The notes under the pieces are model-generated. The model was not told where the DNA came from. It worked only from the letters and a program-made list of their open reading frames with translations, and did no database searches. Below are positions 6,120 to 30,479 of a stretch of DNA of 34,193 bases, piece after piece (position 1 is the first letter of the stretch; each line of letters opens with the position of its first letter). A program made the translations under genes and the position numbers. The DNA is from Clostridium sp. GTDB lineage: Bacteria; Bacillota_I; Bacilli_A; RF39; UBA660. The stretch spans positions 1-34,193 of the forward strand of contig JAMPDH010000014.1 of the NCBI GenBank assembly GCA_023665725.1, read 5' to 3'.

Positions 6120-6398
6120 TTATAGTTTATCATAATGAGTCCACATTCTAATAATATGTATTTCTTTTAAATTTTCATCAACCTCATATACAATACAGTG
6201 TTGCCTATTAATTCTTCTAGAATATAAACCACTTAATTCCCCACATAATTTTTCATAAGAAGGAGGATAACAAAATGGATCTTTTTGCATTGAATTAAGA
6301 ATTATTTTACAAGTTTTATCAAGCCCTGAACTTTTTAATTTTTTCTTATCGTTTTCTGCTTGTTTAGAAAATTTTATGACATAATTACCATTCTTCAT
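6120..6398 (-). CDS. Type II toxin, Txe/YoeB family mRNA interferase
   Basis: YoeB-type toxins enter the ribosomal A site and cut mRNA when freed from their YefM antitoxin. The 92-residue product starting at the ATG at 6398 has the family core: KFSKQAENDKKK at the N terminus, PFCYPPSYEKL with Glu49 in place of the catalytic glutamate, the signature GLYSRRINRQH with R61/R62, then IVYEV and the C-terminal MWTHYD with His88 and Tyr89. Key residues appear intact, so the toxin looks functional. A longer reading from 6449 would lie almost wholly inside the antitoxin gene and is unlikely. Its start overlaps the end of the antitoxin gene by 14 bases, typical of coupled translation in this family, with the antitoxin first. 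Confidence 0.92.
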   Translation of the reverse strand: MKNGNYVIKFSKQAENDKKKLKSSGLDKTCKIILNSMQKDPFCYPPSYEKLCGELSGLYSRRINRQHCIVYEVDENLKEIHIIRMWTHYDKL

Positions 6399-6642
6399 TT
6401 TCTGTGTACTCCGAAGAATTAGACCAATCCTCGTTTTTTCTAATTTCATTTATATTATCCACAAGTCCTGGAATACTTGAAAGATATAAAGTTTCCTCAA
6501 TATTTTTCCACTCATCCTCTGATATTAAAACTGCATTTTTTCCTTTATTATTCACAATTGTAATAGGATTAAAGCCTACATTAACATCAGAAACAAGTTG
6601 AAATAAATTTTGTCTTGCATTTGTAATATTAATAGTGCTCAT
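6385..6642 (-). CDS. Type II antitoxin, Phd/YefM family
   Basis: An 85-residue YefM-like antitoxin that would bind and neutralise the following toxin and repress its own promoter. The N-terminal DNA-binding part has the family pattern INITNARQNLFQLVSDV, then PITIVNNKGKNAVLISEDEW; the C-terminal tail, ending in EEW, is acidic and is the expected toxin-binding region. The start at 6642 is chosen because AGAGGTGATAAA precedes it; the in-frame extension to 6759 would translate the operator repeats and is rejected. The toxin gene begins inside its last codons. Three evenly spaced GTAC sites lie 25 to 60 bases upstream of the start, as expected for autoregulation. Confidence 0.92.
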   Translation of the reverse strand: MSTINITNARQNLFQLVSDVNVGFNPITIVNNKGKNAVLISEDEWKNIEETLYLSSIPGLVDNINEIRKNEDWSNSSEYTENEEW

Positions 6643-6666
6643 TTTATCACCTCTTGATTTTATTTT

Positions 6667-6699
6667 AACGTACTTTTTAACGTACTTTTTAACGTACGT
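6667..6699. promoter_or_regulatory. Likely YefM operator: three GTAC sites at 12-bp spacing
   Basis: A 12-base unit, AACGTACTTTTT, is repeated; the GTAC cores are at 6670, 6682 and 6694, exactly 12 bases apart, and the third sits in the palindrome ACGTACGT. In the Escherichia coli yefM-yoeB operator, palindromes with a TGTACA core are separated by 12 bp and are bound by YefM. The site lies just upstream of the antitoxin gene. Binding is inferred from this parallel. Confidence 0.65.
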
Positions 6700-6916
6700 A
6701 AAGTGTTTATTATTAGTATATGCTAAACCATAAAAAAATACACCGATTATTCTAACCAATGTATAATATATTATCTATAACAAATCTAAATTTGTTTTAT
6801 AACCATATGGTACCCGAGAGAAGGACATACACAACTCTTTGGACCAAAGAAACAGTTAGCAATAAACTTAACTGACTACAATATATCACAATTATTTTAA
6901 TTTTAAATATAAAATC

Positions 6917-7525: not shown

Positions 7526-7903
7526 TGGTGGAGCTGAGGAGATTTGAACTCCTGTCCAAATATACAAAACTATAGACACCTACAAGCTTAGTTAGTTAAT
7601 ATTTGTCCTAATGATATCAATAACTAACAAAAAGTATCAAAAGCAAGCTTATTAAAATTCATTGTTACTTATAAGCATCATAACAATATATCCCATTAAA
7701 TCGAACCTTCTATAACTCTCATGGGAGAAAAGTTAAAGAAAGTCGTATTCCTTATATAAGTTTAGGCAAAGGCAACAACGTTTCTATTAAACATTGAAGC
7801 AACACGGTTTTTTAAATTTTTAGCATTTATTTTGCTTTGCATTTAACGTATGCCTACGACTTGCAGCCTATATCCTGTATATCTGTCGAAACCAGGCAGC
7901 CCC
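7526..7903 (-). ncRNA. ssrA: Transfer-messenger RNA (tmRNA, SsrA)
   Basis: Rescues ribosomes stalled on broken mRNA, with SmpB, by adding a degradation tag. The 5' end GGGGCTGCCTGGTTTCGAC is the tmRNA hallmark. It pairs over 7 bp (one G-U) with the 3' end CAGCTCC, followed by discriminator A and an encoded CCA. The T arm with GTTCAAATC is clear at 7535-7560. The tag reading frame (7762-7824) resumes at GCT and encodes AKNLKNRVASMFNRNVVAFA then TAA: 20 residues, ending in AFA instead of the usual LAA. Length is 378 nt, normal for the one-piece form. It directly follows rnr and smpB on the same strand, the common Firmicutes order. Confidence 0.96.
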
Positions 7904-7954: not shown

Positions 7955-8392
7955 TCAATAATTTTTTAATTGCTTTCTAGTCTCTCTATCTATATCTCTT
8001 TGCTTTATAGTTTCTCTTTTATCATATGTCTTTTTACCTTTAGCAAGACCTAAAAGAATCTTAGCTTTATTTTTTTTAAAATATAATTTTAATGGTACCA
8101 AAGTATTTCCATCGAGAACAACCTTATTATTTAATTTTAATATTTCTTTTTTATGTAATAATAGTTTTCTTGTCCTTTTTTCATCATGATTAAATATATT
8201 TCCTTGTTCATATTCACTTATATGCATTCCAAGCAAAAATACCTCATTATTTTTTATAATTGCATAACTATCTTTTAAATTCGCATTTCCATTTCTTATT
8301 GATTTAATTTCAGTACCAGTTAATACAATACCACATTCTATTGTATCTATTATTTCATAATCAAAATGTGCTTTTCTATTATTTATTTCCAT
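7955..8392 (-). CDS. smpB: SsrA-binding protein SmpB
   Basis: Binds the tRNA-like part of tmRNA and brings it to stalled ribosomes. The 145-residue product shows the OB-fold pattern of the family: NRKAHFDYEI, then GIVLTGTEIKSIRNGNANLKDSY, LLGMHISEYEQG, and the basic C-terminal tail GLAKGKKTYDKRETIKQRDIDRE that inserts in the mRNA channel. The ATG at 8392 is preferred over the TTG at 8410 because AGAGG lies 6 bases before it and the protein then begins at the family's usual place. It overlaps the end of rnr by 14 bases, so the two are co-translated. The tmRNA gene begins about 50 bases downstream. Confidence 0.97.
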   Translation of the reverse strand: MEINNRKAHFDYEIIDTIECGIVLTGTEIKSIRNGNANLKDSYAIIKNNEVFLLGMHISEYEQGNIFNHDEKRTRKLLLHKKEILKLNNKVVLDGNTLVPLKLYFKKNKAKILLGLAKGKKTYDKRETIKQRDIDRETRKQLKNY

Positions 8393-10496
8393 TTTCTTCC
8401 TCTTTAACAATTATAAAATCTATAGTTCTTGCTTCCTTTGATGCAGAAGTAACTTTAATCCTTACCTTGTCCCCTAATCTATAACCTCTTTTATCATTCT
8501 CACTTTTAATAGAAAATGTCTCTTCATCATACACATAATTTCCACCCTTTAAATCATCTATTTTAACAAGACCTTCAACTAAGTTAGGAAGTTCAACAAA
8601 CATTCCAAAGCTTGTTACACTACTTACCATTCCATCATATTCTTCACCTATATGATTCATCATAAATTCTGCTTTTTTCATGTCATCAACTTCACGTTCA
8701 CATGCTGCTGCATCTCTTTCTTTTTCTGAAGAATGAATAGTTAAATCAACTAGCTTATTATCGTAATATTCTACTACTTCTTTATTTATTTGATTTTTAA
8801 ATAAATACTTTCTAAGTAATCTATGAACAGTTAAATCAGGGTATCTTCTTATAGGAGAAGTAAAATGAGTATAACACTTACTTCCAAGCCCAAAATGGCC
8901 AATATTTGTTTTATCATAAATAGCTTTTTGCATACTTCTAAGTGTCATTGATGATAGAATTTGATATTCATCTTTATCTTTTAGTTGTTCTAGTAATGCT
9001 TTTATAGTTGTAGGACGAACATCCTTGATTTCTCCTGTTACTTTATACCCAAGTATACTTATAAATTTTAAAAAGTTATTTATTTTTTCTTTACTAGGTT
9101 CACCGTGAACACGATATACAAAAGGAAGTTCCATATAATATATATGCGTTGCTACTGTTTCATTTGCAGCTATCATGAAGTCTTCTATTAATTTTTCTCC
9201 ATCTTTTCTTTCTCTTTTAATAACATCTATTGCTTTACCCTCATCATCTACTATTATTTTAGCTTCATCTATTTCAAAATCAATATAACCTCTATCTTCT
9301 TTCATTTTTCTTAAAATTTTAGCTAAAGCATTCATCTTAATAAGTGTATCAGCATAATCTTCATAGCCCTCTGGCACTATATTTTCAGTTAGTATTTTAT
9401 TTACATTATCATATGTCATTTTCTTTCTAGATCTTATGACACTTTCAAATATATCATATGAAATAACTTTTCCCTTTGAATCAATTTCCATAACACATGA
9501 TATAGCAAATCTATCTTCACTTTCATTTAGTGAACATATTCCATTGGAAAGCTTATGTGGTAACATTGGTATTACTCTATCTGCTAAATATACACTTGTT
9601 CCTCTATCATATGCTTCAAGATCTATTTCTTTATTTTCTTTTACATAATAACTAACATCTGCTATATGAACACCTAATTTATAATTTCCATTTTCTAAAA
9701 TATCAAGAGATATTGCATCATCTATATCCTTTGTATCCGCACCATCTATTGTAAATATCATTTCGTTTCTTAAATCTTTTCTGTTTCCTATATCTTCACT
9801 TTCTATAGAATTTGGCAAATCCATAGCCTCTTTCATTACTTTTTCACTAAAAGTATCATTAATTCCATACTCTGCCACTATAGATAATATATCTACACCT
9901 GGATCATTTTTATGCCCTAGTATTTTAACAATTTCTCCTTTATATTCATAATCCCTAATTTTGCTAGTAACATGAACCAATACTTTATGTCCATTCATTG
10001 CGCCTTTAGTTTTATCTTTATCTATTTCTATTTTTAATTTTACTTTTTCATCATCTAAATCTACATAACCCTTACCTTGTTTATAGTAAAATTCTCCTAC
10101 CATATTTTTTAAAGTTCTTTCTACTATCTTTAGAATTCTTCCTTCAAATCCTTTACCAGTTGAAGAAGTTATTTCTACTATTACTTTATCATTATGTATA
10201 GCGCCATTTAAATTAGTAGGGGCAACAAAAACATCTTCATCTCCTTCTATATCAACAAAACCAAATCCTTTTTTATTTATTATAACCTTTCCAACCTTTA
10301 TATTACTATTTTCAAATAACATATATTTATCTTTTTTAGTTCTATATATTTTAAATTCATCTTCTAATTTATTTAAAGTTTTTAATAATCCTTTTAAATC
10401 TTCTACTGTTGAAAGGCCTAAATTATCATTTAATTCATAAACTGATAGTGCTTTATTATTCTGTTTTAACATTTCCAATATCTTTTGTTCCATCAC
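8379..10496 (-). CDS. rnr: Ribonuclease R (3'-5' exoribonuclease)
   Basis: Processive 3'-5' exonuclease that degrades structured RNA, including non-stop mRNA released by trans-translation. The 705-residue protein has an N-terminal winged-helix domain (1-60), cold-shock/OB domains (about 65-200), the RNB catalytic domain (about 235-570) with the metal-binding stretch TIDGADTKDIDDA giving D251, D257, D259 and D260, and an S1 domain (about 615-695). The start is either GTG at 10496 or ATG at 10493; AGAGGTG lies 5 and 8 bases upstream respectively, and the products differ by one residue. The lysine-rich tail of proteobacterial RNase R is short here. It overlaps smpB by 14 bases and heads the rnr-smpB-ssrA unit. 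Confidence 0.97.
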   Translation of the reverse strand: MMEQKILEMLKQNNKALSVYELNDNLGLSTVEDLKGLLKTLNKLEDEFKIYRTKKDKYMLFENSNIKVGKVIINKKGFGFVDIEGDEDVFVAPTNLNGAIHNDKVIVEITSSTGKGFEGRILKIVERTLKNMVGEFYYKQGKGYVDLDDEKVKLKIEIDKDKTKGAMNGHKVLVHVTSKIRDYEYKGEIVKILGHKNDPGVDILSIVAEYGINDTFSEKVMKEAMDLPNSIESEDIGNRKDLRNEMIFTIDGADTKDIDDAISLDILENGNYKLGVHIADVSYYVKENKEIDLEAYDRGTSVYLADRVIPMLPHKLSNGICSLNESEDRFAISCVMEIDSKGKVISYDIFESVIRSRKKMTYDNVNKILTENIVPEGYEDYADTLIKMNALAKILRKMKEDRGYIDFEIDEAKIIVDDEGKAIDVIKRERKDGEKLIEDFMIAANETVATHIYYMELPFVYRVHGEPSKEKINNFLKFISILGYKVTGEIKDVRPTTIKALLEQLKDKDEYQILSSMTLRSMQKAIYDKTNIGHFGLGSKCYTHFTSPIRRYPDLTVHRLLRKYLFKNQINKEVVEYYDNKLVDLTIHSSEKERDAAACEREVDDMKKAEFMMNHIGEEYDGMVSSVTSFGMFVELPNLVEGLVKIDDLKGGNYVYDEETFSIKSENDKRGYRLGDKVRIKVTSASKEARTIDFIIVKEEENGNK

Positions 10497-19857: not shown

Positions 19858-19900
19858 AAAAATAAAAAGAATTAAATCTTTTTATTTTTAGATTTAATCC
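19858..19900 (-). terminator. Terminator of the gerK operon, overlapping the gerKB stop
   Basis: An 11-bp stem (19869-19879 with 19890-19900, one G-U) followed by TTTTTATTTTT on the minus strand. The stop codon of gerKB lies in the 3' arm, so the last codons (RIKSKNKKI) are part of the terminator. Confidence 0.8.
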
Positions 19901-20957
19901 TTTTTAACTTTATTGCGCCTACAATTAAAATAATAATAAATAGAATAAAATATTTAACATAAAGTGATGTATTAATAATATATTCACTATATATAGTATT
20001 ATTTTTAAATATAAAAGTTGATACAAAAAGTAATAAAACTGCTATCAAAAATATAATAACTTTATTATTTCTCTTATTTATTGTATTTGATATAAAATAT
20101 GTACATAGACTAATATTTATAAATAAACTAAATATCCATTGTAATACTATTAAATTTTCTATTCTATCTACAAAATTAAATATACTTATTCTTTTTAATA
20201 CAATGTACTCAGGATATAAATATACACGCGCTAAATCTATTCCAAGATTACCTATTGTAAGTAGTATAGTTAAAAATATTACTAATATTGAAAAAATATA
20301 AAATAAAATAGTAACAATTTTATATTTTTTATAGTCAACTAAATTATTTTTAGGTACTATAAGAAGTATTATAATAGGAACTATATTTAACATTATTATA
20401 TATAAACTTCCGTGTAAAGGTTTTCCTATTCCAAATTCCATAACTGGCATAAGGTTAGAAAAATCCATATTAAATAAAAGTCCAAATACTTCTATTAAAA
20501 ATAAGGCAGTACAGATTACTATTAAAATAAGAGATACTCTACTAATAACATCTATTCCCTTAATATTTATATATATAATTATAAGTATAAATAGAAATCC
20601 TATTACGAATATTGGTGTTTGAGATAAAAATTGTGATGCAATAAAATTTGTTAAATCATAAAATAAACTGACTAATAGGATAAATATAGCTATACATAAT
20701 AAATAGTTAATAATGGTTCCTATTACATTTCCAAATAGCTTTTTATTTTTTTCAGGGAGAGGCAAATCTGGTTCATAATTTCCAATATATAGATACATAA
20801 GAAGTACTACAACTCCAAGTATACCAGCTATTAGTACACTAATCCATGAATCTACACCAGCTATATTTATAACAGCATACATTCCTTTTCCAATAGTAGC
20901 GGACGCTATTATTAAAGTAATCATGCATCCAAGTTGTAATGAATTAATCTTTTTCAT
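19872..20957 (-). CDS. gerKB: Spore germination protein, GerKB/GerAB-type permease subunit
   Basis: B subunit of a GerA-type germinant receptor in the spore inner membrane; B subunits belong to the APC transporter superfamily and bind the germinant. The 361-residue protein has about ten membrane helices with the family N terminus QLGCMITLIIASATIGKGM, followed by DSWISVLIAGILGV. It ends in a basic tail KRIKSKNKKI. The ATG follows GGTGATACCAA and overlaps the end of gerKC by 14 bases. It is the last gene of the A-C-B operon, the order found in gerK of Bacillus subtilis. Which germinant it senses cannot be read from the sequence. Confidence 0.93.
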   Translation of the reverse strand: MKKINSLQLGCMITLIIASATIGKGMYAVINIAGVDSWISVLIAGILGVVVLLMYLYIGNYEPDLPLPEKNKKLFGNVIGTIINYLLCIAIFILLVSLFYDLTNFIASQFLSQTPIFVIGFLFILIIIYINIKGIDVISRVSLILIVICTALFLIEVFGLLFNMDFSNLMPVMEFGIGKPLHGSLYIIMLNIVPIIILLIVPKNNLVDYKKYKIVTILFYIFSILVIFLTILLTIGNLGIDLARVYLYPEYIVLKRISIFNFVDRIENLIVLQWIFSLFINISLCTYFISNTINKRNNKVIIFLIAVLLLFVSTFIFKNNTIYSEYIINTSLYVKYFILFIIILIVGAIKLKRIKSKNKKI

Positions 20958-22128
20958 TTGGTATCACCGTAACTGCATTCCCTTTCCCTTTTAAAGTAAC
21001 ATTTACATTTATATCAAATTCAATATTCTTTAAGTTTTCTTCATACCACTTATCTTTAATCTGATAATAATATTTTGGATTGCTTTTATAAATTATATCT
21101 AAAAGTCCTAATGTATCTGAATTATATTCAATATTAATTTTATTTAAAGTTTGACTTACCAATTGTTTTATTTTTTCTTCATACATTTTTTCAATATCAG
21201 ATATAACCTTTGGATTATTTAAATCCATGTTACAATGAATTTCACTTATATTTCCTTCTAGATTTATTTTTATTTTTACTTTAAGTTCGTTCTTTATAGG
21301 TGATATATCTGCAATAGCTTTCGTAGTTTGTATTGTTATATATTTATTATTATCACATTCGCAATTAATTATCATTACATTACTTTCATTTGCTAAAATT
21401 GAACTTATTTTACTCTCTTCTTCATTTAAATACCCGACTAGTTTATCTTTTTTTAATATTGCCATATTAGATAATACTAATTTTGTTTCTGGATTTGATT
21501 CCTTTAAATTCTCCAAATTTTCACCAATATCTTCTTCCCCAATAACCTCTATACTAGGTATTATTATATCCTTTTTATTGTTTAAATAAGTTTGAACTAA
21601 TTTTTCAAATAAAATTTCCTGTGATGATCCATAGTATTGTGAATCTACTTCGATACTACTAAGTATATTTTTTGCATTTGTAGTTTCTAAGGGAGTTAAT
21701 ACCTCAAGTACATCCTGAGCTGTTGTATCACGTGCAAGTACCACTGTAAATTGTTTTCTAGATTCTAAATTCCTCATGAAGAAATCAAATATTCCACCTA
21801 TACCTTCTTTCGCATATTCTTCACCTATAACTAACAACTCTAAGTGATTTCCATATAATCTCTTCGGTGATTCAAGTACAACTTTTCTTAAGGCCTCTTG
21901 TAATGTATCCCCTTCAGTTTTATATGTTATAAATTTTGTTTGTTCATTTAAACTTCCATTTTCATCTCCCTGTTGAGTATTTATAACCTGTATTGTGACT
22001 TGATACTTTCCATCTTTTTTATCTATACCAACTGCACTCATAATAGCAAGTGTGTTTAATTCTCTATAGTTATAACACCCTGTAAGTGAAAATATTGTTA
22101 ATATTAAAAATATTATTTTATTCTTCAT
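20944..22128 (-). CDS. gerKC: Spore germination lipoprotein, GerKC/Ger(x)C family
   Basis: C subunit of the GerA-type receptor, a lipoprotein on the outer face of the spore inner membrane. The 394-residue protein begins with a lipoprotein signal, IIFLILTIFSLTGCYN, with the lipidated Cys at residue 18. The typical sequence YRELNTLAIMSAVGIDKKDGKYQVTIQVINTQ follows, then ALRKVVLESPKRLYGNHLELLVIGEEYAKEGI and ARDTTAQDVLEVLTP. The start at 22128 is chosen since AAAGGAGTCATAATA precedes it; the in-frame ATG at 22155 would put this site inside the protein. It overlaps gerKA by 11 bases and gerKB by 14 bases. Confidence 0.95.
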   Translation of the reverse strand: MKNKIIFLILTIFSLTGCYNYRELNTLAIMSAVGIDKKDGKYQVTIQVINTQQGDENGSLNEQTKFITYKTEGDTLQEALRKVVLESPKRLYGNHLELLVIGEEYAKEGIGGIFDFFMRNLESRKQFTVVLARDTTAQDVLEVLTPLETTNAKNILSSIEVDSQYYGSSQEILFEKLVQTYLNNKKDIIIPSIEVIGEEDIGENLENLKESNPETKLVLSNMAILKKDKLVGYLNEEESKISSILANESNVMIINCECDNNKYITIQTTKAIADISPIKNELKVKIKINLEGNISEIHCNMDLNNPKVISDIEKMYEEKIKQLVSQTLNKINIEYNSDTLGLLDIIYKSNPKYYYQIKDKWYEENLKNIEFDINVNVTLKGKGNAVTVIPNEKD

Positions 22129-23569
22129 TATTATGACTCCTTTGTGATACTTCATTATTCGATAAATATGATTCTCTTTTTAATAATTTTTTAATAGGAA
22201 ATCTTATAATACTTTTCTTTAGTCCGGTAAAATTGGTAGGCACATATGGCATTAAATATGGCTTGCCAAACGATTCTATGCTACTTGCTCTAATTATAAA
22301 GAAAAGAAAAATTATTACTACGCCAATTATTCCCATAAATATTGCACCTAGCATGAATAAAATTCTATATGTTCTTAATGTATTAGTTAATTCTATTTCA
22401 GAAAATGGTAGAGAACTAATTGATGTTATTGCAACAATTATTATCATTATAGGAGATACTATTCCTGCATTTACAGCAGCTTCCCCAAGTATTAATGCTC
22501 CAACTATTGATAAAGAACTTCCCGTAAATGTTGGAGCCCTAAGATCACTTTCTCTTAATATTTCAAATGAAAGCAGCATCATTGTTGCTTCAACAAAGGC
22601 AGGAAATGGTACTCCATCACGCTGTGTTGCAAAACTAACTAATAAATCAATTGGTATCATTTCTTGATTATATGTAATAAGCGCTATATAAATAGCAGGT
22701 GTAAGTAGAGCTATAAAAAATGCTATAGCTCTAATAAATCTAGTTGATGTTACATTTATACTTTTACCATATTCATCCTCTATACTTTTAAAAAGGTCAG
22801 TCAACATTGCAGGAATTATTAAAACAAATGGCGAATTTTCAACTACTATTGCTATTTTACCTTCTAATAATGCTTTAGATACCAAATCTGGTCTTTCTGT
22901 AGTTATTACAGTTGGCAACTTTGTATTCTCATTTGTTATTAAATTCTTTATTGTACTACTATTAACAATACCTGCTATATCAATTTGATTAAGCCTTTTT
23001 TTTGCTTCATCAATAAGTTCTTTCTTTGCTACTTTGTTTATATATAATACCCCAACATTAGTTTTTGTATACTTTCCTATCGTAATTTTGTCCATCCATA
23101 AATCATTACTTCTAATTCTTTTTTTTATTAAACCAATATTTATTTGAAAATCCTCAACAAATGCGTCTTTCGCACCTCTTACAACATTTTCTTCACTTGG
23201 TTCTCCTACTGCTCTATTTATAGAAGCCTTTGTTTCTAATGCAAAGCCTTTGTTTTCTCCTTCCATTATTATAATAGTAAATCCGGAATGTAAGTTTAAA
23301 CATAAATCTTCATAATTACTTATTTCTTTAACTTTAAAGTTAGATATATTATTTTTTATTGATGCATATAATTTTTTTCTTGGAACATCCTCTAATCTAT
23401 TTAAACTCCTAATTATAAAATCACTTATCTTATCACTTGAAGTTATAGGTTCATTATAAATAATATAAATTTTTGTTTTTCCTATATATTTTTCTCTATA
23501 TATAATATCATCTATATTATTAGTTTCTTCTTTTAAAATTCTTACTATTTCATCTATATTTTCTAACAT
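22118..23569 (-). CDS. gerKA: Spore germination protein, GerKA/GerA-type subunit
   Basis: A subunit of the germinant receptor; it has a soluble N-terminal domain and a membrane part, and is now thought to form an oligomeric channel. The 484-residue protein has the GerA-family core VSKALLEGKIAIVVENSPFVLIIPAM, followed by four or five membrane helices from about residue 275, with the FPAFVEATMMLLSFEILRESDLRAP motif and GALILGEAAVNAGIVSPIMIIIVA. It ends with PYVPTNFTGLKKSIIRFPIKKL. The ATG at 23569 has GGTGATATTT upstream; the ORF start at 23641 has none. A forespore-type promoter may lie 25-55 bases upstream. First gene of the A-C-B operon. Confidence 0.96.
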   Translation of the reverse strand: MLENIDEIVRILKEETNNIDDIIYREKYIGKTKIYIIYNEPITSSDKISDFIIRSLNRLEDVPRKKLYASIKNNISNFKVKEISNYEDLCLNLHSGFTIIIMEGENKGFALETKASINRAVGEPSEENVVRGAKDAFVEDFQINIGLIKKRIRSNDLWMDKITIGKYTKTNVGVLYINKVAKKELIDEAKKRLNQIDIAGIVNSSTIKNLITNENTKLPTVITTERPDLVSKALLEGKIAIVVENSPFVLIIPAMLTDLFKSIEDEYGKSINVTSTRFIRAIAFFIALLTPAIYIALITYNQEMIPIDLLVSFATQRDGVPFPAFVEATMMLLSFEILRESDLRAPTFTGSSLSIVGALILGEAAVNAGIVSPIMIIIVAITSISSLPFSEIELTNTLRTYRILFMLGAIFMGIIGVVIIFLFFIIRASSIESFGKPYLMPYVPTNFTGLKKSIIRFPIKKLLKRESYLSNNEVSQRSHNNEE

Positions 23570-23592
23570 AAATATCACCAAATTCCTAGTAT

Positions 23593-23623
23593 TATTATGG
23601 AAGAAATATAAAAAATAATTACA
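23593..23623 (-). promoter_or_regulatory. Possible sigmaG-type promoter of the gerK operon
   Basis: On the minus strand CATAATA (23593-23599) fits the sigmaG -10 consensus CATNHTA, with TGTAAT (23618-23623) 18 bases upstream as a poor -35. Germinant receptor operons are usually sigmaG dependent, which supports the call; the -35 match is weak. Confidence 0.35.
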
Positions 23624-23640
23624 TTTTATTTTATATATCA

Positions 23641-23682
23641 AAAAAAATATGAATACACCAAAGTATATCCATATTTTTATTA
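23641..23682 (-). terminator. Terminator after the small pilin-like gene
   Basis: Two arms, AAAAATATG and CATATTTTT, with a further ATAC/GTAT pairing inside (one bulge), flank ACCAAA. The structure lies just past the stop codon and ends in a T run on the minus strand; it may also act on the plus strand. Confidence 0.6.
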
Positions 23683-28023: not shown

Positions 28024-28158
28024 CTAATTATAATCAACGAATTCCTTAATATATATTATATAATTTTTATAATCATAGTTAAAATATGTATCTAAAAAAT
28101 TTCTACAGTTATTTAATGTAAGTGCTGCCTGAATAAACTTATAATCAATATAATCCAT
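28024..28158 (-). CDS. Small 44-residue frame overlapping the lon stop
   Basis: Starts with an ATG that shares one base with the TAA of lon (TAATG), with GGAGG six bases upstream inside the last lon codons, so it is well placed for translation. It encodes 44 residues rich in Tyr and Asp, without signal or membrane segment, and ends in TAG TAG. Just where it stops, the frame of the next gene opens (28027). A single-base change near 28025-28030 would join the two into one protein of about 229 residues. It is therefore either a tiny gene of its own or the start of a broken gene. Family not recognised. Confidence 0.5.
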   Translation of the reverse strand: MDYIDYKFIQAALTLNNCRNFLDTYFNYDYKNYIIYIKEFVDYN

Positions 28159-30479
28159 TATTTACCTCCAAATACTATTTTATATATTTCTTTATAATCC
28201 GAAACTGATATAAATTCTATAGATTTTGTAATTTCTTCTGGAATATCTTTTAAATCCCTTATATTATCAGATGGCATTATTATTTTTTTTATATTATTCC
28301 TATAGGCACCTATGCTTTTTTCTTTTAATCCACCTATTGGCAAAACTTTTCCTCTTAGAGTTATTTCTCCTGTCATAGCTAAATCATTAGGCACTTTTTT
28401 ATTTATAAGTAAACTAATTAAAGATGTAGTTAAGGCAATGCCTGCACTTGGGCCATCCTTTGGAACTGCTCCTTCGGGAACATGAATGTGGATATCATTT
28501 TCATTTAAGATATTTTCGTTAATATGATATTTTTTATAATTAGATTTTACATAATCCATAGCAATATGTGCACTTTCTTTCATTACATCGCCTAATGAAC
28601 CAGTTAAAACTAAATCGCCTTTACCTTTAAAATAAGTGACCTCGATTGGTAATGTATCTCCACCATAATTTGTATAAGCAAGTCCATTCACAACTCCAAT
28701 ATTTTCTTCATTATTTTTATTTGTAAAAAGATATTTTGGTTTTCCTAAATATTGATCTAAATTTTTACATGTAACATTAAGCGTTTTAATTGCTATTTTA
28801 TTTACAACCATAGAAGTTACTATCTTTCTAATTATAGTGCTTATCTTCCTATTTAACTCTCTTACCCCAGCTTCTTTTGTATAACCCCTAATTATTTCTA
28901 AAATAGCATCATCATCAAAATGTATAGATTCATCAGGCAATCCATGTTCTTTTAAAACATTTTTTATAATATGTTTTTTACAAATATCAAGTTTTTCGTA
29001 TTCTGTATATCCACTTAAGTTAATAATTTCTAATCTATCTTTTAGTGGTTCAGGTATATTTTCTATATAATTCGCAGTTAAAATAAATATAACTTTTGAA
29101 AGATCAAATTCTTCTTCTATGTAGTTGTCTATAAAATATTCATTTTGTTCTATATCTAATACGTCTAATAAAGAACTAGCAGGATCTCCCTTTATATCTT
29201 TTGCCATTTTATCAACTTCATCTATAAGAAATAAAGGATTAGAACTTTTTGCCTTTTTAATTGATTGTATTATTCTACCGGGGCTTGCACCTAAATATGT
29301 CTTTCTATGCCCAATTATTTCTGCCGGATCATTAATACCACCCACTGAAATTTTAGCAAAGTTTCTATTAAGTGCTTTTGCCACTGAAAACGCAAGTGTT
29401 GTTTTTCCAACTCCTGGAGGACCCACAAGACAAAGTATTGGACTTTTAACATCTTTTGAAAACTGTCTTACTGCTAAAAATTCTATAATCCTCTTTTTGA
29501 CATCTTCAATTCCAAAATGAGACTCATCTAATTTTTTTCTAACATCTTTTAAATTTTTATTATCTTCTGTATACACTTGCCATGGTAAATCTAATAACCA
29601 GTCAATATATGTTCTAAGGATTCCAACTTCAGGTGAAACAGAGGATAATGTCTCATATCTTTTTATTTCACTTTCTAATCTATCTTTAGCTTTAGGAGGT
29701 AAAGATAGAGAATCCATTCTTTCTTTTATTTTTTCTATTTCTACGTCTTTTGAATTAGTATCTCCTAACTCCTCTTTAATTTGTTTGATTTTTTCTCTTA
29801 AAACATATTCTTTTTGACTTTCATCTATTTGTTTTTTTACTTTTAAATCTATCTTTTTTTCTATCTCATATATTTCTTCTTCTTTATATATATCACTTAA
29901 AATAAATTCTGCTCGTCTTTTACTATTAGTTTCAAGTAAGTATTCATTAAGTCTTTCTATTTTTATAGGTAAAAAAGGTGCGATCATATCAGTTAATTCT
30001 GAAAGACTTTTAGAATCTTGTACAACGCTTAATATTCCGTTCCCCATTTTAGGCACAAAATGTACAAACTTCTCTAATTCATTTGAGATTTTTTTTATTA
30101 AAATATTTTCCTCAGTTTCATCAATTACTTCTGACTTTAACTCTGAAATAATTGATTCCATAGTTTCTAGTTCTTTGTTTGTATTTAAGTATTCATGTAC
30201 TTTAGCTCTTTTTATTCCTTTTAATACTACCCTTGTTTTTCCATTAGGAAGTTCTATTCTATGAGTGATGTTTGCAATAACTCCTATTTTGGGTAACTTT
30301 TCGATAACTATTTTATCAACTAAATCTGGTGTACTTGCAACCAATATATTACTTTCATGAAATAGCTGTGATATATCTAAAACATTTTTACTTACTGTAT
30401 TATCAAATTCCAATCTTATTTCATTTTTAGGAAGTAGTATTATACCTTTTAATAATAGTACTGGTAAATTGCTTTTCAT
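28158..30479 (-). CDS. lon: ATP-dependent protease Lon (LonA)
   Basis: Hexameric cytoplasmic AAA+ protease for damaged and regulatory proteins. The 773-residue product has the N-terminal substrate domain (PVLLLKGIILLPKNEIRLEF, about 1-200), a coiled-coil linker, the AAA+ module with Walker A GPPGVGKT (353-360) and Walker B FLIDEVDK (417-424), and a C-terminal protease domain with catalytic Ser678 in GPSAG and Lys721 in GLKEKS, the dyad distance of Escherichia coli Lon. It is full length. The ATG has a GGAGGTG site and there is a promoter just upstream. No CIRCE element is visible. In Bacillus subtilis lonA is also in the neighbourhood of ysxC, spoVID and ysxE. Confidence 0.98.
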   Translation of the reverse strand: MKSNLPVLLLKGIILLPKNEIRLEFDNTVSKNVLDISQLFHESNILVASTPDLVDKIVIEKLPKIGVIANITHRIELPNGKTRVVLKGIKRAKVHEYLNTNKELETMESIISELKSEVIDETEENILIKKISNELEKFVHFVPKMGNGILSVVQDSKSLSELTDMIAPFLPIKIERLNEYLLETNSKRRAEFILSDIYKEEEIYEIEKKIDLKVKKQIDESQKEYVLREKIKQIKEELGDTNSKDVEIEKIKERMDSLSLPPKAKDRLESEIKRYETLSSVSPEVGILRTYIDWLLDLPWQVYTEDNKNLKDVRKKLDESHFGIEDVKKRIIEFLAVRQFSKDVKSPILCLVGPPGVGKTTLAFSVAKALNRNFAKISVGGINDPAEIIGHRKTYLGASPGRIIQSIKKAKSSNPLFLIDEVDKMAKDIKGDPASSLLDVLDIEQNEYFIDNYIEEEFDLSKVIFILTANYIENIPEPLKDRLEIINLSGYTEYEKLDICKKHIIKNVLKEHGLPDESIHFDDDAILEIIRGYTKEAGVRELNRKISTIIRKIVTSMVVNKIAIKTLNVTCKNLDQYLGKPKYLFTNKNNEENIGVVNGLAYTNYGGDTLPIEVTYFKGKGDLVLTGSLGDVMKESAHIAMDYVKSNYKKYHINENILNENDIHIHVPEGAVPKDGPSAGIALTTSLISLLINKKVPNDLAMTGEITLRGKVLPIGGLKEKSIGAYRNNIKKIIMPSDNIRDLKDIPEEITKSIEFISVSDYKEIYKIVFGGK

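Follow-up and report, generated by a model that had tools for sequence, protein, structure and literature searches.

An AFA-ended tmRNA tag in a bacterial family without ClpX, with Lon as first candidate for its reader

The tmRNA gene of a Clostridium sp. genome, located in a stretch of 34,193 nucleotides that we analysed in full (the window; G000 denotes its genome), encodes a tag that ends in AFA and is conserved among relatives, and the genome encodes Lon, ClpC and ClpP and no ClpX. The most likely reading is that ClpX was lost, that the need for a final Ala-Ala was relaxed, and that tagged proteins would be degraded by Lon, our first candidate, and/or by ClpCP; we infer the identity of the tag-reading protease from gene content. 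Coordinates are collected in Table 1.

Table 1. Features of the window, followed by protease-related genes elsewhere in the same genome (G000)
Feature	Position	Strand	Basis and remarks
YefM/YoeB-type toxin-antitoxin pair	6120-6759	(-)	about 1 kb from the tmRNA
tmRNA (ssrA) gene	7526..7903	(-)	full length, 3' CCA encoded; ARAGORN and Rfam RF00023
Tag reading frame	7762..7824	(-)	AKNLKNRVASMFNRNVVAFA + stop; ARAGORN, third-position excess and shared motif in relatives
SmpB	7955..8410	(-)	PF01668 205 bits; TIGR00086 199.8 (cut-off 119)
RNase R (rnr)	8379..10496	(-)	RNB domain 401.7 bits, with CSD2, OB_RNB and S1
GerA / spore permease / GerAC germination genes	19872-23641		
Lon protease	28158..30479	(-)	773 aa, full length; TIGR00763 851 bits (cut-off 608)
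Second, divergent ClpP	L179:5019-5633; G000:C28:6036-6542	(-)	directly 3' of an SSB-like gene, near a primase-like ORF
ClpB without N-terminal domain	L237:160-2271; G000:C27	(+)	703 aa; TIGR03346 matched from position 146
Divergent ClpX-like ATPase	L177:6989-8593 = G000:C23:67009-68094	(-)	534 aa; LGF loop

The tmRNA gene and its tag

A single tmRNA exceeded the Rfam cut-off in the whole genome (1.09 Mb, 95% complete), and it matched RF00023 over model positions 1-374 without truncation (146.6 bits, E 7.8e-58; the gathering cut-off is 47 bits). Its acceptor stem, read from the sequence, contains the alanine identity pair G3-U70. The AFA-ended tag frame found by ARAGORN was exactly the one written in the original prediction (codons GCT AAA AAT TTA AAA AAC CGT GTT GCT TCA ATG TTT AAT AGA AAC GTT GTT GCC TTT GCC TAA). 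The rnr gene overlaps smpB, and ssrA belongs to the same rnr-smpB-ssrA cluster; smpB is listed from a TTG, and the ATG six codons downstream (MEINNRK...) is probably its true start. Addition of the tag by tmRNA-SmpB is established for such systems, and with a full-length model match, a conserved, stop-ended tag frame and an encoded SmpB, the best explanation is that this is an ordinary rescue system in a lineage without ClpX. The nearby toxin-antitoxin pair is of a type in which YoeB cuts mRNA on ribosomes, producing tmRNA substrates, and YefM-type antitoxins elsewhere are Lon substrates.

The tag peptide itself is under selection. Across 14 disjoint pairs of related long tags there were 29, 29 and 58 base differences at codon positions 1, 2 and 3, a third-position share (58/116) well over one third (one-sided p = 1.5e-4), which indicates selection at the protein level. 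An extended motif, KxKN..A.(M/L)F....VAFA, also written [AG]NKIKN.xA.(M/L)F....(A)VAFA, is common to about 30 relatives, and its internal segment KxKN...A.(M/L)F occurs in a large subset of genera, this genome included; short tags such as GNRNQLAFA occur in other genera of the family, so that tag length within the family ranges from 8 to 23 residues. ARAGORN readings unlike a tag were excluded (G080, G109, G227, G157, G246, G108 and the second copy of G254), and a few tmRNAs yielded no tag reading.

Loss of ClpX

We compared tags and proteases in 146 genomes of the order, which represent one family and 75 genera, and in 149 genomes from 22 families of the class; all comparison genomes, those of the wide comparison included, belong to the same class. 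None of the 146 order genomes, this one among them, exceeded the cut-off of the ClpX model TIGR00382, whereas all ten bacterial controls did, and because most of the order genomes are more than 90% complete the absence does not stem from missing sequence. Elsewhere in the class ClpX was found in 38/149 genomes, all within eight of the 22 families. By coordinates, clpX adjoins lon directly upstream in ClpX-positive relatives; it is not directly upstream of lon in the window, where a tblastn search of that region found no clpX remnant, the sole match being the AAA core of Lon itself. The ClpX-negative calls for three class genomes (G150, G169 and G182) may reflect assembly gaps: the G182 contig starts inside lon, and G150 has neither lon nor clpX, two genes that sit side by side in the related genome G161.

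A check for ClpX and ClpP in the genome, proposed along with the original prediction, found ClpX absent and two ClpP genes present. Given the absence of ClpX, the tag must be handled by some other protease than ClpXP, and we are nearly certain that ClpX is not its reader here. In the open-licence literature we found no paper on loss of ClpX with retention of ClpP in this group, or on its tags.

The remaining proteases

The full-length Lon that had been noted in the window is indeed there, with its Lon_C, AAA, lid and substrate-binding domains. Lon exceeded its cut-off in 131/146 order genomes and 138/149 class genomes and is present also in class families with neither ClpX nor ClpP; among the proteases searched for (FtsH had no model of its own) it is the one present in nearly all ClpX-negative class families. 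ClpP was found in 129 of the 146 order genomes, and outside this family it is largely limited to the ClpX-positive families and one other (f13). Besides its two ClpP genes, G000 encodes ClpC and ClpB. Its ClpP scored 308.2 bits with TIGR00493, just below the cut-off of 308.6, and exceeded the cut-off of NF001368.

The second ClpP is possibly carried by a mobile element, and a few more of the order genomes contain a second copy like it. A weak second match to the ClpX model, in a 674-aa frame of contig C22, looks by inference like FtsH.

Tag endings and protease content

When tags were compared across related genomes, AFA-type endings proved widespread: among 95 usable family tags, 61 have AFA itself as their last three residues, 80 close with FA or YA, 12 close with AA, and 87 have F or Y in one of the last three places. 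With FA or YA in 80/95, the ending is a family trait and nothing special to this genome. In ClpX-positive genomes of the class the tags end in AA in 26/32 cases and in FA or YA in two of 32; in ClpX-negative genomes outside the family the counts are 49/74 and 14/74, and ClpX-negative families have varied endings (YAA, FAA, ACA, ALA, YAC, LAA).

Two minor observations concern tags elsewhere in the class. Cysteine-ended tags (AFC, FAC, YAC) occur in families f5 (L115, L123, L127), f13 (L110) and f21 (L111), whether or not the genome has ClpX. G265 (L105, L131), G254 (L123, L180) and G044 (C14, C36) each gave two tmRNA matches that exceed the cut-off, and in G265 one match encodes ANNNYVYAA and the other ANNQPKLSFAF; the second tmRNA in such genomes may come from contamination or be a mobile copy.

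In the usual account, Lon took over the tag from ClpXP once the latter was lost in mycoplasmas, and AFA is the mark of that change. Our comparison did not support AFA as a sign of such a switch. FA or YA ends 58 of the 70 tags of family genomes that have Lon, ClpP and ClpC; the same endings are found in 9/10 tags of family genomes without Lon, and FA ends 8/9 tags of those without ClpP and ClpC. In genus g61 none of the three genomes sampled has Lon, and both readable tags of that genus end in LAFA. Long tags form a lower share in Lon-less genomes (1/10, from few, related genomes). Two genomes of class family f3 (G147, G159) have the tag GNKQQLAFA, with the same last three residues as here, together with an intact, canonical ClpX next to lon, so that AFA does not imply loss of ClpX. 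A simple link to Lon is also hard to square with genomes that appear, from the TGA codons inside their lon genes, to be Spiroplasma-like: they have Lon and neither ClpX nor ClpP, and their tags end in ALAA. A close match to the Mesoplasma florum tag, also within the class, ends in YAFA; here too the likeness to a named organism is judged from sequence. With AFA found beside ClpX, and LAA beside neither ClpX nor ClpP, in other families, the ending predicts the protease poorly. A Lon tree requires at least 11 changes of ending, scored as AA or other, and two of ClpX status; this gives two independent contrasts, too few for a correlation between ending and status.

One part of the proposed change of protease therefore stands, namely that the usual reader is gone and another protease must read the tag; the part in which AFA itself points to Lon does not. 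Likewise, the proposed intermediate state holds in one sense, in that ClpX has been lost while ClpP and ClpC stay, whereas Mesoplasma-like genomes lack ClpP too.

Comparison with known systems

The ssrA tag of M. florum and other mycoplasmas is reportedly read by Lon, according to work by Gur and Sauer in 2008 and Ge and Karzai in 2009. The system described here shares several traits with it: the tag is extended, contains a hydrophobic stretch and ends in AFA, ClpX is missing, and Lon is full-length. It differs in keeping ClpP and ClpC, and since the absence of ClpP is a defining feature of the mycoplasma system we count it as a variant of that system and not as a member. It differs also in its spore-germination genes, which make the earlier description of the host as a spore-former reasonable, in its standard bacterial code, and in the range of tag lengths within the family; moreover, reading by Lon is here a prediction. 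With the canonical (A)LAA tags of Bacillota and E. coli, which are read by ClpXP, it shares the tmRNA fold, SmpB, the gene cluster and the alanine identity pair, but the tag lacks a C-terminal Ala-Ala and the genome lacks ClpX, so that neither the (L)AA end nor the ATPase of a ClpXP-read tag was found. What distinguishes this case is a large family with spore-germination genes in which ClpX alone was lost, ClpP and ClpC were kept, and AFA-type tags are already present.

Candidate readers of the tag

We favour an explanation in which, once ClpX was lost in the lineage, a C-terminal (L)AA degron would no longer have been required; the tag may then have come to end in FA or YA, and tagged proteins would be degraded mainly by Lon, an enzyme that accepts hydrophobic and aromatic tails without structure; ClpCP would be a second or alternative route. 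For mycoplasmas, AFA tags are described as read by Lon (PMC3985003, PMC9382460), and Lon preferentially cleaves after Phe, with Leu and Ala next (PMC11986505). This, together with its presence in nearly all ClpX-negative class families, makes Lon the first candidate, and we lean slightly towards it as the main reader here. The FA tags of genomes without ClpP and ClpC indicate that a non-Clp protease suffices in those genomes. Counting against Lon are the LAFA tags of g61, which lacks it, the LAFA tags of f3, which has ClpX, the ALAA tags of genomes with Lon only, and the retention in most genomes of ClpCP, which could be the reader.

That ClpC and ClpP, and not Lon, took over the tag, by direct or adaptor-mediated binding and with an ending that drifted to suit ClpC, seems to us rather doubtful. 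The genome does encode both, its ClpC having a Clp_N domain and a VGF ClpP-docking loop, and ClpC was lost in 11/17 ClpP-negative versus 5/129 other family genomes (p = 4e-9), a joint loss which suggests that the two form a working pair; in addition, the Lon-less g61 genomes G092 and G107 keep ClpP, ClpC and LAFA tags, which leaves ClpCP as the main candidate in that genus. However, the same tags are still found in genomes without ClpP and ClpC, tmRNA and tags persist in families without any ClpP, and neither McsA/McsB nor CtsR adjoins clpC here. Tentatively, we consider it possible that ClpCP, kept after the loss of ClpX, became a reader alongside Lon, with genera that would use Lon only, ClpCP only, or both. 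If true, such sharing would provide a natural series between ClpXP-read and Lon-read states. With some genera that have only Lon and others that have only ClpCP, the identity of the reader can be tested directly. It is unlikely, in our view, that reading is redundant (Lon, ClpCP, FtsH) or weakly needed, with an ending that is near-neutral save for a hydrophobic tail and an AFA specific to no protease: the uncoupling of ending from protease content in family and class and the wide range of endings in ClpX-negative families would fit, but the ending is non-random within the family, both in its AFA share and in its F or Y residues, and the tag is constrained at the codon level.

Replacement of ClpX by the divergent ClpX-like ATPase encoded on contig C23 is extremely improbable. 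This protein has a ClpX-type core with a GYVG pore loop, a DVSGRGV segment and the LGF loop, but it scored 148 bits against the ClpX cut-off of 371, has neither the zinc-binding domain nor the RKH motif, and is sporadic (about 55/146 genomes). It matches phrog_4339 and lies beside phrog_1314, phrog_1297 and a reverse transcriptase, which suggests that it is probably part of a prophage, and we rejected it as a tag reader for being phage-type. Its relatives (L036-L050) form a family of 470-860 aa proteins with GYVG and an (I/L)GF loop that likewise have no zinc-binding domain and no RKH motif, and in G000 its neighbours comprise a DUF2201 metallopeptidase/VWA protein, an ATPase and the reverse transcriptase, all with phage-family matches.
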